From a virus: a DNA stretch of 31,569 nt. The stretch covers positions 1 through 31,569 of IMG/VR virus record IMGVR_UViG_3300020411_001720. One strand, 5' to 3'. Of the stretch, positions 6,541 to 18,819 are shown piece by piece; position 1 is the stretch's first letter; every line of letters begins with the position of its first letter. The notes under the pieces are model-generated. The model saw nothing but the letters and a program-made list of their open reading frames with translations, was not told where the DNA came from and did not search any database. The position numbers and the translations under genes are program-made.

Positions 6541-7074
6541 ATGGAACCTCTAAGAAAATTTGAGGTTCCTTTTTTTATTCATCAATTAGATCTAAATAAA
6601 CAGCTTCAAATATTAAATATTTTCACTTGTAATGAAAAAAAATTAGAGAAGAAAGATCCTGTTTCCGATGTTTATACGGATTTTTTTGCTTCTAAAAATT
6701 ATCTTCCTGATGTCGTTGAAATATTGCGAGAGGAATTAGAAGACCTATACCTTTCGGCTGGTTTTCGTAAACCTATAATTTCACAAGCATGGATGCAGCA
6801 ATACACTAAAGGTTGCTTTATGACTCCTCATAATCATGGTATGACTGGGTTTAGTGCGATTTATTATATTAAATTTGATCCTACTGAACATGAGTCAACC
6901 AGATTTATTGCACCTCTAAATAATTTTATTACTGGAGATAATCTTGAATACAAGCCAGAAGTAAATAAAGGGACATTAATATTTTTTCCTTCAATGTTGA
7001 TGCACTACGTCAGGCCAACCCAATCAGATAAGCCAAGGGCTATCCTATCGTTCAATATTGACGAACGTCTTTGA
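6541..7074 (+). CDS. 2OG-Fe(II) oxygenase (prolyl hydroxylase-like)
   Basis: A 177-residue member of the phage putative 2OG-Fe(II) oxygenase family, which hydroxylates protein side chains using 2-oxoglutarate, O2 and Fe(II). Visible hallmarks are HNH at 97-99, GTLIFFPSMLMHYVRPT around 144-160 with the distal iron-ligand His155, and Arg166 followed by ILSFNI (168-173), which would contact 2-oxoglutarate. The full domain is present. Such enzymes are common in cyanophages and often lie next to structural genes; the substrate is unknown, possibly a fibre or host protein. Oddly, codons 1-12 encode a perfect 8-bp hairpin followed by seven T residues, so most incoming transcripts may stop here. Confidence 0.85.
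   Translation: MEPLRKFEVPFFIHQLDLNKQLQILNIFTCNEKKLEKKDPVSDVYTDFFASKNYLPDVVEILREELEDLYLSAGFRKPIISQAWMQQYTKGCFMTPHNHGMTGFSAIYYIKFDPTEHESTRFIAPLNNFITGDNLEYKPEVNKGTLIFFPSMLMHYVRPTQSDKPRAILSFNIDERL
6543..6576 (+). terminator. Intrinsic terminator inside the oxygenase start region
   Basis: GGAACCTC (6543-6550) pairs perfectly with GAGGTTCC (6562-6569) across an 11-nt loop, and TTTTTTT follows at 6570-6576. It is rightward-facing and terminates the fibre/structural transcript. It is unusual because it begins at the second base after the ATG of the next gene. Confidence 0.8.
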
Positions 7075-7095
7075 AGGATTAGAGTCATACCAGTA

Positions 7096-7362
7096 ATGGC
7101 TTGCTTTATGCAAAAAGTTTTCAACATTATCTCAGCACTTTCGTTCGTACTTGTCTTGGGTATTACTGGTGGTGGAGTTTTTGGGTTTCTCTGGATTACC
7201 AACGAGGACAACCAAAAGATGCTTCAAGATAAAGCAATGGAAAAGGTAATGGGTGCTATGAAGTTACCTGGATTATCTGGTCCTGCTCTACCTACTGGCC
7301 CTTTAAGTCCTGCACAGCAAACGAACGAAAACAAAAGAGCAATTGGTTTACCTAAGTTTTGA
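7096..7362 (+). CDS. Small membrane protein
   Basis: An 88-residue protein with one strong membrane segment at about residues 8-33 (IISALSFVLVLGITGGGVFGFLWI), then a charged stretch and a Pro/Gly-rich tail containing LPGLSGPALPTGPLSP. I recall similar short proteins in T4-like cyanophages, where their role is unknown. An alternative start is the ATG at 7111 (MQKVF). It overlaps the next gene by 4 nt (TTGA), which suggests translational coupling. Confidence 0.65.
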   Translation: MACFMQKVFNIISALSFVLVLGITGGGVFGFLWITNEDNQKMLQDKAMEKVMGAMKLPGLSGPALPTGPLSPAQQTNENKRAIGLPKF

Positions 7363-13284: not shown

Positions 13285-13785
13285 TTAAGGCTTCTCTTGA
13301 GCTAAAAGTTCTTGGCCTTTCTTTACATGTTCTATGGTCTTTTGAACAGAAACATCTTTGCCATTGGCTAAACGATTTAATTCGTTGAGATGTTTTTCTG
13401 CTTCATGTAACCGCCTGATTGCTCCATCCTTAGCGGATTTCATTAATTCAGGTTCTTCGATGACCCTTTGTGCTGGAACATAAGCTTTAAGAACAGATAC
13501 ATGAACAAAAGCTGGTTGTTCTCCTTCTTCGGGATGAATAACCCTAACAGTCTTAATTAAAGAACGTGCTTGTGTTTTGCGATGTTCTTCTGCTGCGACC
13601 TCATCATCCCATTCAAAAGCTTCATGTAAAACAGCTTTTTTTGGCCTTGATTCATCTACAACATTTGATGCAGTAGTTTGCCCGTATTTTTTATTAATAC
13701 GTTCAAGCTCTTCACCTGCGTCTTGTGCTTCAACATTGTTTGTATAAAACGAATGTGGAGACTTGCGAAAACAATAATCAGTCAT
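13285..13785 (-). CDS. Conserved phage hypothetical protein
   Basis: A 166-residue protein from the ATG at 13785 (MTDYCFRKSPHSFY). The longer frame to 13872 adds residues encoded by the noncoding C-rich array and is rejected; TTTTTTATCTA just before 13785 is the usual leader. The middle (KKAVLHEAFEWDDEVAAEEHRKTQARSLI, then V-R-V-I-H-P-E-E) is a pattern seen in phage proteins of unknown function near recombination genes. The C-terminal half is helical (HEAEKHLNELNRL). It is placed just left of the array. Confidence 0.68.
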   Translation of the reverse strand: MTDYCFRKSPHSFYTNNVEAQDAGEELERINKKYGQTTASNVVDESRPKKAVLHEAFEWDDEVAAEEHRKTQARSLIKTVRVIHPEEGEQPAFVHVSVLKAYVPAQRVIEEPELMKSAKDGAIRRLHEAEKHLNELNRLANGKDVSVQKTIEHVKKGQELLAQEKP

Positions 13786-13832
13786 TAGATAAAAAACAAA
13801 AGTTAGTGAATTAATAATACCGAGTCTTATCT

Positions 13833-14731
13833 TGCCGAACCATCCCCTCCGCACCGCGCCGAAACCAACCACGCCTGCCTCAACTCTACAATCCCCGCCG
13901 TAACGCTACCCGCCATGCCAATAGCCGTGCCTGCTAAACCCCGCCTGACCCTGCAACTCCATCCACACCGCGCCCAACCATGCCTGCTAAACCCCGCCTG
14001 AACTCAACTCTCCGCGCCTAACCACACCTGCAAAACCTCGCCAGTCCTAGCCTTTGTTGCCCCGTTTCTCCATTGACTGCCACTCCTCCCTAGCCTGCCG
14101 CATCTGACCTCGACTCTCCCTTCCCTAACTTGCTCCTCGCTACCTTGACGCGCCTCGCCTGCCGACCCTTCCACTCCCTACCAAGCCTACCGCTTCGCTC
14201 CGTAACTCGCCCTAACGCTCCGTGCCTGCCCAACCTCGTCTTTCCATAGCGCACCAAAACGCACCCATCCTTGCCTGCCTTTCCAATCCTGACCAGAACC
14301 CGCCTTCCTCTCCGTGTCATTCCTTGCCTGCCGAACCGACCACAACCGACCACACCATCCCCTCCAAACCCCTCCCTTCCAAGCCTGCAAAACCGTGCCT
14401 TTGTGTTCCTTTTCGGGCCATGCCCTAACGCGCCTCGCCTGCTAAACCTCACCATTCCTGACCGCATCATTCCTGACCTCGCCTGCCTCAACTTTCCGCA
14501 ACATGCCTTTACCATCCCCTCCAAGACTCTCCCCTCCAGTTCGCATCATGCCTAGCCTGCCATCCATGCCGTCCTCGACTCTCCTGACCACTCGATTCCT
14601 CGCCTGCCTCACGCTCCTCAACACACCGCATCACACGATACCCCACCCCCCTGAACTCGCCATGCCTGCCATCCATACCAGATCGGTCCGACCAGTACCC
14701 GCCCAACCAGTCCAAACCTGCAAAACCGTGC
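13833..14731. repeat. ~900-bp noncoding C-rich array with 5-bp CC spacing
   Basis: This tract fills most of the gap 13786-14774. The + strand is C-rich and G-poor; one 60-base row (14341-14400) has 31 C and 5 G, against AT-rich surroundings. CC dinucleotides recur about every 5 bp: in the six 10-base blocks of 14221-14280, C occupies position 5 of every block and position 10 of five. Words such as GCCTGC, ACGCGCCTCGCCTGC and ACCATCCCCTCC recur several times but there is no fixed long unit. The - strand is therefore G-rich with frequent GG, able to form G-quadruplexes if transcribed. Open frames through it give only R/G-rich low-complexity sequence and are treated as noncoding. Confidence 0.85.
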
Positions 14732-14732
14732 C

Positions 14733-14767
14733 AAAAAAAAAGAAGGTCAAGGAAAATCCCTGACCTT
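14733..14767 (-). terminator. Leftward intrinsic terminator before the C-rich array
   Basis: AAGGTCA (14743-14749) pairs with TGACCTT (14761-14767), with two further inner G-C pairs. On the - strand nine T residues follow (complement of 14733-14741). It ends the transcript of the gene at 14775-15428, so the array is not simply read through from upstream. Confidence 0.82.
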
Positions 14768-14774
14768 GAAAAGA

Positions 14775-15428
14775 TTACTTATTCACTATTTTAAATAAGC
14801 CATAACCAAGACCTGCACTCATTTTTGAGTCTGGCCTCCCTTCACCAACTCCAACTTGTAAACCAACCCTTGCGATCAAGTTAGTAACATCCGCATCGCT
14901 TAACATGCCAGCGTCATATTGAATCCTCAAAGAAGCAGCCCATGTTTTATACATTGGCCTAGCACGTAAATCAATCACACCTGTAGCGTTCCTTGTCGGT
15001 GCGATCCATTCCTCGGCAACACCTTCTGTAAGTTTTACAAGTGGCGCGGAATCAACCTTGTCTAATCCGTCAGATAAAACCATAAAGGCAAGCTTGGCAT
15101 GAGTCATTTTAAATCCAACTGCACGGCAAGCACTGATAGCACCATTCCTAAATGCAGCAGCATGTATGCCTTCCCATCCTTCTGTGCTGACATGCTTTGC
15201 TCCTTCAAACAAAGCAGTAAAATCTTTTGCTTCGCGAATTTTTTTACTGCTAGATGTACTACCAGCTTCTTGCTTCGCTTTCATCTCTTCCTGTGCTTTA
15301 GCACTGAAGCGATTAATTACTAAAGGTGATGTACCTTCAATATCAATCTGTAAATACCTGAAGTCAGGTGGAGTGATAGCCATAACAGCTTTTGATGCTG
15401 CTTTCGTTTTGGTTGCCGTAGTAGGCAT
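14775..15428 (-). CDS. Conserved phage recombination-cluster protein
   Basis: A 217-residue protein. After a basic, disordered N-terminus it has IDIEGTSPLVINRFSAKAQEEM. A central K/S region follows, then WEGIHAAAFRNGAISACRAVG, and a conserved C-terminus with ARVGLQVGVGEGRPDSK followed by SAGLGYGLF. I recognise this as a widespread phage family often encoded near RecT or exonuclease genes, without an assigned function. The Gly-rich C-terminal loop and the 'TSPLVIN' start are loosely like RAMP/Cas7-type RNA-binding folds, but that is a guess. The leader includes TTTTATCCATTATC. It is isolated by a terminator on its 3' side. Confidence 0.72.
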   Translation of the reverse strand: MPTTATKTKAASKAVMAITPPDFRYLQIDIEGTSPLVINRFSAKAQEEMKAKQEAGSTSSSKKIREAKDFTALFEGAKHVSTEGWEGIHAAAFRNGAISACRAVGFKMTHAKLAFMVLSDGLDKVDSAPLVKLTEGVAEEWIAPTRNATGVIDLRARPMYKTWAASLRIQYDAGMLSDADVTNLIARVGLQVGVGEGRPDSKMSAGLGYGLFKIVNK

Positions 15429-16521: not shown

Positions 16522-16713
16522 TTAAGAATTAGTAGTTTGAGTGTTGGCTTTTTCGTAATGCTCTACATCAGCCATCTTGTAGCGCACTTTGCCTCCAATT
16601 TTGATGAATGGTGGCCCCTGTCCTTGTCCTCTCCACCGTATTAAACTTTTACGGTGGAGTTTCCATCGTTCTGCAAGTTGAACATCAGTTAGAAATTCAG
16701 AATCCGAATCCAT
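16522..16713 (-). CDS. AlpA/excisionase-type HTH DNA-binding protein
   Basis: A 63-residue protein with LTDVQLAERWKLHRKSLIRW, then GQGPPFIKIGGKVRYKMADVEHY. This is the small winged-helix HTH_17 (MerR/AlpA/Xis-like) fold: one recognition helix followed by the G-G-K-V-R-Y wing. It could act as excisionase or transcriptional regulator; no integrase is in the window, so a regulatory role is as likely. It overlaps the recT gene by 17 nt. Confidence 0.82.
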   Translation of the reverse strand: MDSDSEFLTDVQLAERWKLHRKSLIRWRGQGQGPPFIKIGGKVRYKMADVEHYEKANTQTTNS

Positions 16714-17386
16714 CTTCAGCCTCCTTTTTAGTTGGTTTGTCCTCTTCGACTAGAGGCTCTTTTTCTCTAGGTTGTGCGATAGCAGCTTCATGTGGCGTGT
16801 TAGGCACGGTTACATTCACAGGTTGGATGTCCACAATTTCATCCTCAGTCTGTATCCCTAGCAGCAAATCTGCCACATATTGTCTCCCAAAGAAACTTGC
16901 TGCACGATAACGCAGCATCAAAGAAGGCATCGTCTTCCATTTGCTATTCCTTGTCCAGCCTTCCTTCTCTGCCATATCTAAAGATACCCAAGCACCGCAA
17001 ACTTCTTTCTTGTCTTTTGTTCTTATTGCCTTACAACGACAAGCAGTAATGAAAACTTCATCTCCTTTCTTTGTCCCCTTCTCCTCGTAATCTAAATCTT
17101 CAAACCTCCCTGAACCAATGATTGTTGCTGTAATAAACTGTGCTGACCAACTAGGCTTTCCATGAATAACATTCATGTTTTGCATTACCACCAATGGACT
17201 AATGTTCATTCGATTAGCCATCTCTAATGCAACCAAGCAATTAGCTAATCCTTCCTGTCCTTGATAATGAACTGGTACAAGATTGCTACCAGCTAAAGAT
17301 TTAGCCATGCGTTGATATAACTCAAATGAAACTTCGTTCTTGTAAACCGAAGACTCAGGAGTATTTGTTAAAGCAGATTCAGTCAT
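16697..17386 (-). CDS. recT: RecT family single-strand annealing protein
   Basis: A 229-residue RecT-family recombinase that anneals complementary single strands, working with a 5'-3' exonuclease to repair or recombine phage DNA. Family features are the N-terminal AKSLAGSNLVPVHYQGQEGL, the helix ALEMANRMNISPLVVMQNM, then HGKPSWSAQFITATI, and later GWTRNSKWKTMPSLMLRYRA. Its C-terminus is acidic and charged. The partner exonuclease (17971-18819) is three small genes upstream on the same strand. Start and stop overlap neighbours (ATGA and 17 nt), consistent with one recombination operon. Confidence 0.88.
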   Translation of the reverse strand: MTESALTNTPESSVYKNEVSFELYQRMAKSLAGSNLVPVHYQGQEGLANCLVALEMANRMNISPLVVMQNMNVIHGKPSWSAQFITATIIGSGRFEDLDYEEKGTKKGDEVFITACRCKAIRTKDKKEVCGAWVSLDMAEKEGWTRNSKWKTMPSLMLRYRAASFFGRQYVADLLLGIQTEDEIVDIQPVNVTVPNTPHEAAIAQPREKEPLVEEDKPTKKEAEDGFGF

Positions 17387-17637
17387 TAGTTTTCTTGTAA
17401 ATGATCGGAAATTCTTTCAAGTGCATCTTGAATACCTTGAAGAGACTCTATTAATTCGACTTTGAATAAAGAATTACCCTCTCCACTTCCATACCTGTCT
17501 CTTTCAACCTGAAATTTTTTGTATTCATCTGAATAAGGATAATGAGGATTTTGATAACTAAGTTCTAGTTTTTGAATCTCAGTCATACTTTCCCACCACT
17601 CTTCAGCTTTTTCTTTCGAGTTAAAATCTTCGGTCAC
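17386..17637 (-). CDS. Small hypothetical protein in recombination operon
   Basis: An 83-residue acidic protein with a GTG start; residues 1-20 (TEDFNSKEKAEEWWESMTEI) and the C-terminal LFKVELIESLQGIQDALERI are helical. It overlaps recT by 1 nt and the upstream gene by 4 nt. Not recognised; possibly an accessory factor for RecT or the exonuclease. Confidence 0.6.
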   Translation of the reverse strand: MTEDFNSKEKAEEWWESMTEIQKLELSYQNPHYPYSDEYKKFQVERDRYGSGEGNSLFKVELIESLQGIQDALERISDHLQEN

Positions 17638-17810
17638 GTAATTGTCCTCTTAAATAGAATGTTTGCTTCAGGAAATTTCCTGTCTAGTATTTTTCTTGCC
17701 TCTTCAGGCGTTGGTGCTGTGATCCTTATGTTCCTTCCCTTCATGTTTGGTTTTTCACAAACCCAAAAGAGATGAATTGAAGATCCTAAAGAAGTTGAGT
17801 GCCAATTCAT
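17634..17810 (-). CDS. 58-residue hypothetical protein
   Basis: Reads MNWHSTSLGSSIHLFWVCEK, then MKGRNIRITAPTPEEARKIL. The second part has an I-x-I-T-A-P-T-P-E-E-A strand-helix pattern found in small nucleic-acid-associated domains, though nothing definite. Start and stop overlap both neighbours (TAATG and GTGA). Confidence 0.58.
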   Translation of the reverse strand: MNWHSTSLGSSIHLFWVCEKPNMKGRNIRITAPTPEEARKILDRKFPEANILFKRTIT

Positions 17811-17971
17811 TAGCAGAAAAGTCTTTTAAATCGTTGAATAAGAGTCAGTTTTTTATGGACTCCTACTGGAACCCATTCGCCTCCTTTGCCAACAAACATG
17901 TTTCCTGTATCTCGTTCGATCCATACATGATTGTCAGCTAAAGGCTTCTCAGGTACAGGGGGATCGCTCAT
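17810..17971 (-). CDS. 53-residue hypothetical protein
   Basis: Reads MSDPPVPEKPLADNHVWIER, then DTGNMFVGKGGEWVPVGVHK; short beta strands around W and G, ending basic. Its ATG overlaps the exonuclease stop (TGATG), so its translation depends on the exonuclease message. Confidence 0.58.
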   Translation of the reverse strand: MSDPPVPEKPLADNHVWIERDTGNMFVGKGGEWVPVGVHKKLTLIQRFKRLFC

Positions 17972-18819
17972 CAGAACAAAACAATGTCATCCATAGAAGG
18001 TAGGACAGTATTACTTTTCTTAGGAGACATCCATGCAGGAAGACTTATTTGTTTAATTTCTTCCGTGTATCCCGTGTAGTTTTCTGTCCTTCTCCACTCC
18101 GCTATCTTCTGTAAATCAATCATTGCTTGTTCAAAACCATTTGCCACCATTGCAGAGTCAGCTTCATAAACACCAACCCCATAAGGTGCAGTCTTTTCAA
18201 TAGCAATAAAAATAAAACGATCTGGTCTTACACCAGTAGCTTGCTCTATCCCATGTAAATAAAAACCAGCTTGTACGTGATAGCGAAAATTACAAACACT
18301 CCTACCAAAACCTTTTAAAGAAGCATCAGTTGTAGTTTTTAAATCTACAATCGTTGATCCATCTTTAAATAAATAGTCAGGTCTACATTTGCAATTCAGT
18401 CCTGTCTGTTCATTTTTCCAGAAGAAACTTTGTTCTGCTAAACCATCAGCATCTAATAATTCATTAGCAGGCTTACAAGCAAGTAACGATTTTGTCATTG
18501 CTTGCAACTGTTCTTTGTCGTCTTCGTTAAGAACAGTTCTACCAGCTTCTTCTTGCCTTGCTTTCCATTCCTTACCGTCTTTACTTCTAGCGTTTAAAAT
18601 TTCAGGTTTGTAAATAAACTCAGTTTCAAAGACATCAGGCTCAAGCACTAAAGCATGAAAAGCAGAGCCAATTCGCATGGCTGGGGTCAGCTTTTGTTTT
18701 TTTCCTTCTTTTTTATATTGAAGATGAATACCACTTTTATTGGCAGCATCTAAGTCTGATTTGGAATATTCCTCTTTTGAGTGATATTCCTCGTTGCTTA
18801 ACTGAACAGCACCTTTCAT
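17971..18819 (-). CDS. PD-(D/E)XK exonuclease, RecE/DUF3799 type
   Basis: A 282-residue nuclease of the RecE C-terminal/DUF3799 family, which degrades 5' ends of double-stranded DNA to expose strands for RecT. Motifs seen: GSAFHALVLEP (51-61), Glu129 in AEQSFFW, RPDYL with catalytic Asp148, D159-L-K161 (the D/E-x-K motif) and QAGFY (183-187). All expected catalytic residues are present and the length is normal. It is first gene of the leftward recombination operon and diverges from the helicase gene across 56 bp. Confidence 0.88.
   Translation of the reverse strand: MKGAVQLSNEEYHSKEEYSKSDLDAANKSGIHLQYKKEGKKQKLTPAMRIGSAFHALVLEPDVFETEFIYKPEILNARSKDGKEWKARQEEAGRTVLNEDDKEQLQAMTKSLLACKPANELLDADGLAEQSFFWKNEQTGLNCKCRPDYLFKDGSTIVDLKTTTDASLKGFGRSVCNFRYHVQAGFYLHGIEQATGVRPDRFIFIAIEKTAPYGVGVYEADSAMVANGFEQAMIDLQKIAEWRRTENYTGYTEEIKQISLPAWMSPKKSNTVLPSMDDIVLF

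Follow-up and report, generated by a model that had tools for sequence, protein, structure and literature searches.

Gene content of the locus

The window, as the whole 31,569-nt stretch of viral DNA analysed is called here, contains a vipr gene (14775..15428, minus strand) that lies directly upstream, in the direction of transcription, of a long noncoding array of pentamers (13836..14732, minus strand), with a smaller gene, gene B (13285..13785, minus strand), on the other side. The vipr product is a single-RRM RAMP protein of 217 aa belonging to phrog_4652, a family of unknown function. The family HMM matches PDB entry 36pp_D, "SUSP1 Vipr protein" (E = 1.7e-38), which is the sole solved protein matched by the profile, and comparison of the family with the SUSP1 phage ORF by hhalign gives 99.8%. 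As a single sequence the window protein does not match SUSP1 Vipr significantly (E = 0.34), so it is the family profile, together with the fold, that carries the link to Vipr. An AlphaFold model built from 65 aligned homologues reaches a pLDDT of 91.4; at E ≤ 0.001, Foldseek pairs it only with subunits of CRISPR effectors in the PDB, for the most part Csm3/Cas7, and VIA Z values rise to 11.6 against Csm3/Cas7 RAMPs. The C-terminal motif GxG[DE]xRP...G.F, with invariant G189, G193, R198, and G210, corresponds in sequence pattern and position to a putative glycine-rich loop (G-loop). By profile and model, the product of 14775-15428 is a Vipr homologue with a RAMP (RRM) fold, and by analogy it is expected to coat guide RNA.

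VIPR is a phage-borne relative of CRISPR reported in a bioRxiv preprint of April 2026 (PMC13142463). According to that preprint, it comprises Vipr and vrRNAs of alternating GGY and NN, in which the NN recognise DNA with one base skipped, and it is used between competing phages (PMC13142463). Vipr proteins are characterised by a glycine-rich loop and a thumb domain, and the flanking RNA consists of 9-16 YNNGG repeats. Seven types are distinguished, which differ in their arrays and accessory genes; a structured vrRNA 3′ tail is described for the SUSP1 clade, with array architecture differing by type (PMC13142463). VIPR, with its noncontiguous guide code, is the proposed viral ancestor of class 1 CRISPR.

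Gene B, a candidate vap, encodes a mostly helical protein of 166 aa (phrog_15946; AlphaFold pLDDT 91) whose relatives adjoin vipr or the array in most retrieved loci. Profile comparison with SUSP1 vap1 revealed no similarity, and a fold search against the PDB gave no confident match. Among the flanking genes, Pfam returned nothing above its cut-off except an HTH and an exonuclease-like DUF3799. Further along, at 16697-18819, lie genes for a RecT-like annealing protein and an exonuclease VIII-like protein, which together make up an ordinary recombination pair of a phage not far from the VIPR locus; the recombination-type neighbours named in the original prediction are indeed present. The window DNA showed no similarity to named phages, and the relatives of the phrog_4652 protein occur in Cyanophage Cy-LDV1 and in Mycobacterium and Gordonia phages. 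Cy-LDV1 (BK059895) has a Vipr 54% identical to that of the window, a related gene B, and two GG tracts, but these tracts are short, stand one after each gene, and carry no RNA annotation. From this relative, the host is probably a cyanobacterium and the window virus a cyanophage, presumably of marine origin, to go by IMG dataset numbers.

Between vipr and the array stands a hairpin followed by T9 (14743..14767, minus strand; 11-bp stem, RNA fold -15.6 kcal/mol), the strong terminator-like element noticed beside the tract from the outset. It may be an intrinsic terminator, or a leader or processing hairpin of the array. No clear array promoter was found after it, and transcription may pass it by read-through or may include it as a leader. 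Relatives such as L027 have another leader hairpin at this position, and across the clade L022-L042 a conserved leader hairpin, CGGATTCCGTGGAATCCG, precedes the array (e.g., L027:8606-8680), with a conserved end, AGCACAAACCGCAGCGATAGAGCGGGGTATAAGTGG. At the other edge of the window array, a weakly folded segment (13790..13835, minus strand) that is near-identical in the window, L044, L045, and L046 is a possible single 3′ tail of the whole array.

Architecture and turnover of the array

The tract at 13833-14731 is noncoding, about 0.9 kb long, and composed of 46% C and 14% G on the strand presented, with abrupt edges and a recount of exactly 31 C and 5 G in 14341-14400, as originally described. 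Autocorrelation of CC within it peaks at lags 5, 10, 15, 19, 24, and 34, with troughs between (z = +7.4, +5.9, +4.8, +6.2, +6.8, and +6.7, respectively, against 500 dinucleotide-preserving shuffles). The claim that CC recurs about every 5 bp with occasional slips thus holds, and the peaks at lags 5 and 10 that had been proposed as its check exceed the shuffled sequence. The best spectral period is 4.85 rather than exactly 5, since steps of 4 nt occur among the others, and no region in the rest of the window reaches half of the tract's spectral score. The recurrent modules are also real (GCCTGC 14 times, ACGCGCCTCGCCTGC twice, ACCATCCCCTCC three times), and GCCTGC is the junction between array units, reading GCAGGC on the minus strand. 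Since all neighbouring genes lie on the minus strand, the transcript would be G-rich, of the form GGNNN; a G-rich RNA from this strand, one of the roles first put forward, agrees both with these neighbours and with the identification as VIPR. Short open frames are present, and none spans the whole tract, as its earlier description as noncoding implies. Rfam scanning of the whole window gave no family at gathering score, and thus no hammerhead ribozymes of the kind that stand between vrRNAs in one form of VIPR array; a tRNA search found none, and the tract contains no constant repeat unit with spacers of the kind that makes up a CRISPR array.

On the minus strand the array consists of about 170 G-G-H-NN pentamers in about 17 units, mostly of 33-74 nt, each of which starts after GCA at a GCAGG junction. 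Unit lengths are irregular, with phase slips, and some units hold fewer than 9 repeats. The structured 3′ tail that ends each vrRNA in the SUSP1 clade was not found between the window units. In the window family, the first position of the pentamer is G in 97% and the second in 71%, and the third is A, C, or T in 34, 33, and 30% and G in 3%, which gives a relaxed G-D-H-NN consensus. Most relatives have GG at 93-97% and C as the third base at 84-87%. When near-identical segments are compared in all families, mismatches fall on 17% of NN positions as against 0.2% of G1, 0.7% of G2, and 2.0% of third bases. Hypervariable NN beside fixed GGY fits a guide code, and a structural repeat would not give it.

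Comparison of the window with its close relatives L044 and L046, in which gene B is 98% and 94% identical to that of the window, reveals that the arrays hold whole units in common, exactly or nearly so, while other units are replaced and some are reordered. Gain, loss, and reordering of units among the three occur at the GCAGG junctions. For example, unit 8 (14227..14275, minus strand), a 9-NN guide, is common to the window and L044, and unit 5 (14386..14439, minus strand), a 10-NN guide, is also found in the rearranged L046 array, where its junction differs and it precedes units 2-3.

Linkage of the tract to vipr in other phages

A tract with GG at a period of 4.9 lies near vipr and on the same strand in 40/40 IMG/VR relatives, and same-strand tracts also accompany vipr in the Mycobacterium and Gordonia phages Quico, ODay, and Pipp, in which the tract may come before or after the gene. 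The expectation that other phages would show the same 5-bp spectrum without sequence identity therefore holds across many phages. The GG-chain detector used gave 0 matches in 265 kb of shuffled sequence and, as a positive control, recovered the vrRNAs of SUSP1, which flank its vipr gene on either side. A blind IMG/VR scan for (GGCNN)x7, which made no use of vipr, yielded at least 71 loci with strong tracts; 59 of the 71 listed adjoin vipr, and tract and gene agree in strand for 70 of 71 tracts among the listed loci. Neither vipr nor a tract was present in any of 57 control viral loci. Given the linkage in all 40 relatives, the blind scan, and the empty controls, the pairing of vipr and tract is specific. 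Proximity to recT is incidental because the constant partner of the tract is the vipr gene.

In the genome collection, most GGCNN matches either were short or came from GC-rich genomes, and they lacked vipr. The exceptions are L194 (Aureimonas ureilytica), L207 (a Fibrobacteres MAG), and L220 (a Patescibacteria MAG), bacterial contigs in which vipr homologues stand beside the matches. L150:468-954 is the only strong tract, among the matches listed, on the strand opposite its neighbouring vipr fragment, and L020 has an opposite-strand tract upstream of vipr (6807-7307), possibly a divergent array, plus two tracts downstream. Strong GG-period-5 tracts without a recognisable vipr in the retrieved stretch occur at L125:3096-4310 and in L050, L054, L078, L085, and L109; these are possibly orphan arrays, companions of distant Vipr types, or loci with missing flanks. 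The two arrays of L125 both end in a common tail, TCCCCGTAAGTCCC / TCTCCGTAAGTCCC.

A probable VIPR guide array and its alternatives

Taken together, these observations make it highly probable (roughly 0.93) that the tract is an array of vrRNAs, the guide RNAs of a VIPR system composed of vipr, the array, and the candidate vap. With the publication of VIPR in 2026, the locus joins a known kind, and the preprint (PMC13142463) supersedes the statement that no named class suits the tract. Of the protein and DNA roles suggested earlier, protein association is supported by the adjoining Vipr homologue, and curved DNA, a packaging site, and a recombination site are not. Like the VIPR of Escherichia phage SUSP1 (type II, PDB 36pp), the window locus combines a RAMP of about 20-24 kDa, an adjacent predicted pentamer RNA of GGY/NN type on the strand of the gene, and a small candidate accessory gene. 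SUSP1 has four separate vrRNAs of about 100 nt, each with a structured 3′ tail, whereas the window has one continuous array of about 0.9 kb with tail-less units, GCAGG junctions and a GGH/NN consensus that is less strict. Its candidate accessory protein is unrelated to that of SUSP1 when profiles are compared. The pentamer tract adjoins vipr as the flanking YNNGG repeats do, with H rather than Y as the third base. A continuous repeat tract with several guides is also a feature of the "staggered arrays with overlapping vrRNAs" named in the preprint (PMC13142463, fig. S18). The class 1 CRISPR RAMPs Csm3/Cas7 share the RRM-type fold, the glycine-rich C-terminal motif, and periodic RNA binding, the last of these predicted for the window; unlike class 1 CRISPR, the window lacks CRISPR repeats, no other cas gene was recognised in the annotated parts, and its guide information would be interrupted every 2 nt. 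The locus extends VIPR to an array of some 17 units in an apparent marine cyanophage.

How the system may work is inferred by analogy from the preprint (PMC13142463). The array would be transcribed from the minus strand as a G-rich RNA, perhaps cut at or near the GCAGG junctions. One copy of Vipr would bind each pentamer and hold its constant GG, while the two variable bases would stay available for pairing. A DNA target would then be read in the pattern NNxNNxNN, each step passing over one base. Pairing of the NN with DNA by the Vipr-guide complex would block transcription of competing mobile elements.

Against this reading count the looser consensus, the lack of a tail per unit, the hairpin-T9 before the array with no clear promoter, and searches from which no established natural target emerged. 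Decoded guides from all loci, searched against 2.5 Mb of DNA, gave no excess for a 1-nt skip over skips of 0, 2, or 3, and a 1-nt-skip excess was likewise not seen against 14 related phage loci or T4-like phages. Exact 9-NN scans of IMG/VR with units 5 and 8 and one L040 guide returned 0 matches each. Unit 4 (14440..14483, minus strand; NN = GA CA AT GC CA AT GA TT) alone among the in-phase guides of the window matches T4-like phages exactly over 8 NN with a 1-nt skip, in a set that includes loci fetched using unit 4, and no other guide pointed to these phages. Its exact IMG/VR scan gave 43 stretches, or about 15 independent sites, and 22 of the 43 are one in-frame site in the T4-like gp43 DNA polymerase gene (ESYRLDHIAHIEL), where the base passed over falls on the wobble position of the codon. 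Although this resembles the published 1-nt-skip behaviour, a rough estimate puts the chance expectation for the 16-base pattern at about 20 sites, and marine data are rich in gp43; the site is therefore not claimed as a target of unit 4, and the unproven candidate is kept as a lead only.

Alternatively, the tract could be a VIPR array that shares its descent with Vipr but has since decayed or taken on another role, with its GG loosened and most units no longer guides. A second G at 71%, a third base without pyrimidine bias, irregular unit lengths with phase slips, and exact scans without targets all suit this unlikely alternative. In the segments common to the window, L044, and L046, however, GG changes number 0/192, NN changes 1/191, and third-base changes 4/97, so that four of the five substitutions fall on the third base; with no change in GG and one in NN, the common units look maintained. 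The first position has also stayed G in 97% of pentamers despite the relaxed second, and vipr is an intact gene whose product gives a confident model.

Far less probable is an element acting as DNA, whether an R-loop or G-quadruplex, a Chi-like recombination hot spot, or a protein-coated centromere or packaging site near recT. The strong GC skew, a G-rich strand that is always the strand of the transcript, and the nearby recombination genes would suit it, but such an element does not predict the substitution contrast between NN and GGY, the constant neighbour across varied phage gene contexts is a RAMP gene, and the SUSP1 vrRNAs are, in the preprint, expressed and Vipr-bound RNAs (PMC13142463). 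The least credible reading is an Arg/Gly-rich coding region. Besides the short open frames, it has in its favour the homologous, vrRNA-like tract of Gordonia phage Pipp (L049:6614-6883), annotated as protein gp43, but in the window no frame spans the tract, and the period, 4.85 with slips, does not correspond to whole codons. The Pipp annotation is itself probably a misannotation, as had been suspected of R/G-rich "ORFs" in other phages, and actinobacteriophage tracts annotated as such proteins are probably guide RNAs.

Within the VIPR reading, the kind is already known, and its description in the accessible portion of the preprint does not include a tail-less GCAGG array of about 17 units, a G-D-H-NN scaffold, or unit turnover (PMC13142463). 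We tentatively suggest that the locus represents a variant of VIPR in which the array is long and without tails and the scaffold relaxed, and whose GCAGG-bounded guide modules might be exchanged and reordered between phages like CRISPR spacers. If so, an array-editing process, by recombination at the junctions, would give phages evolvable guide repertoires. Because the arrays of the three close relatives differ by whole units, the acquisition or exchange of VIPR guides is directly testable.
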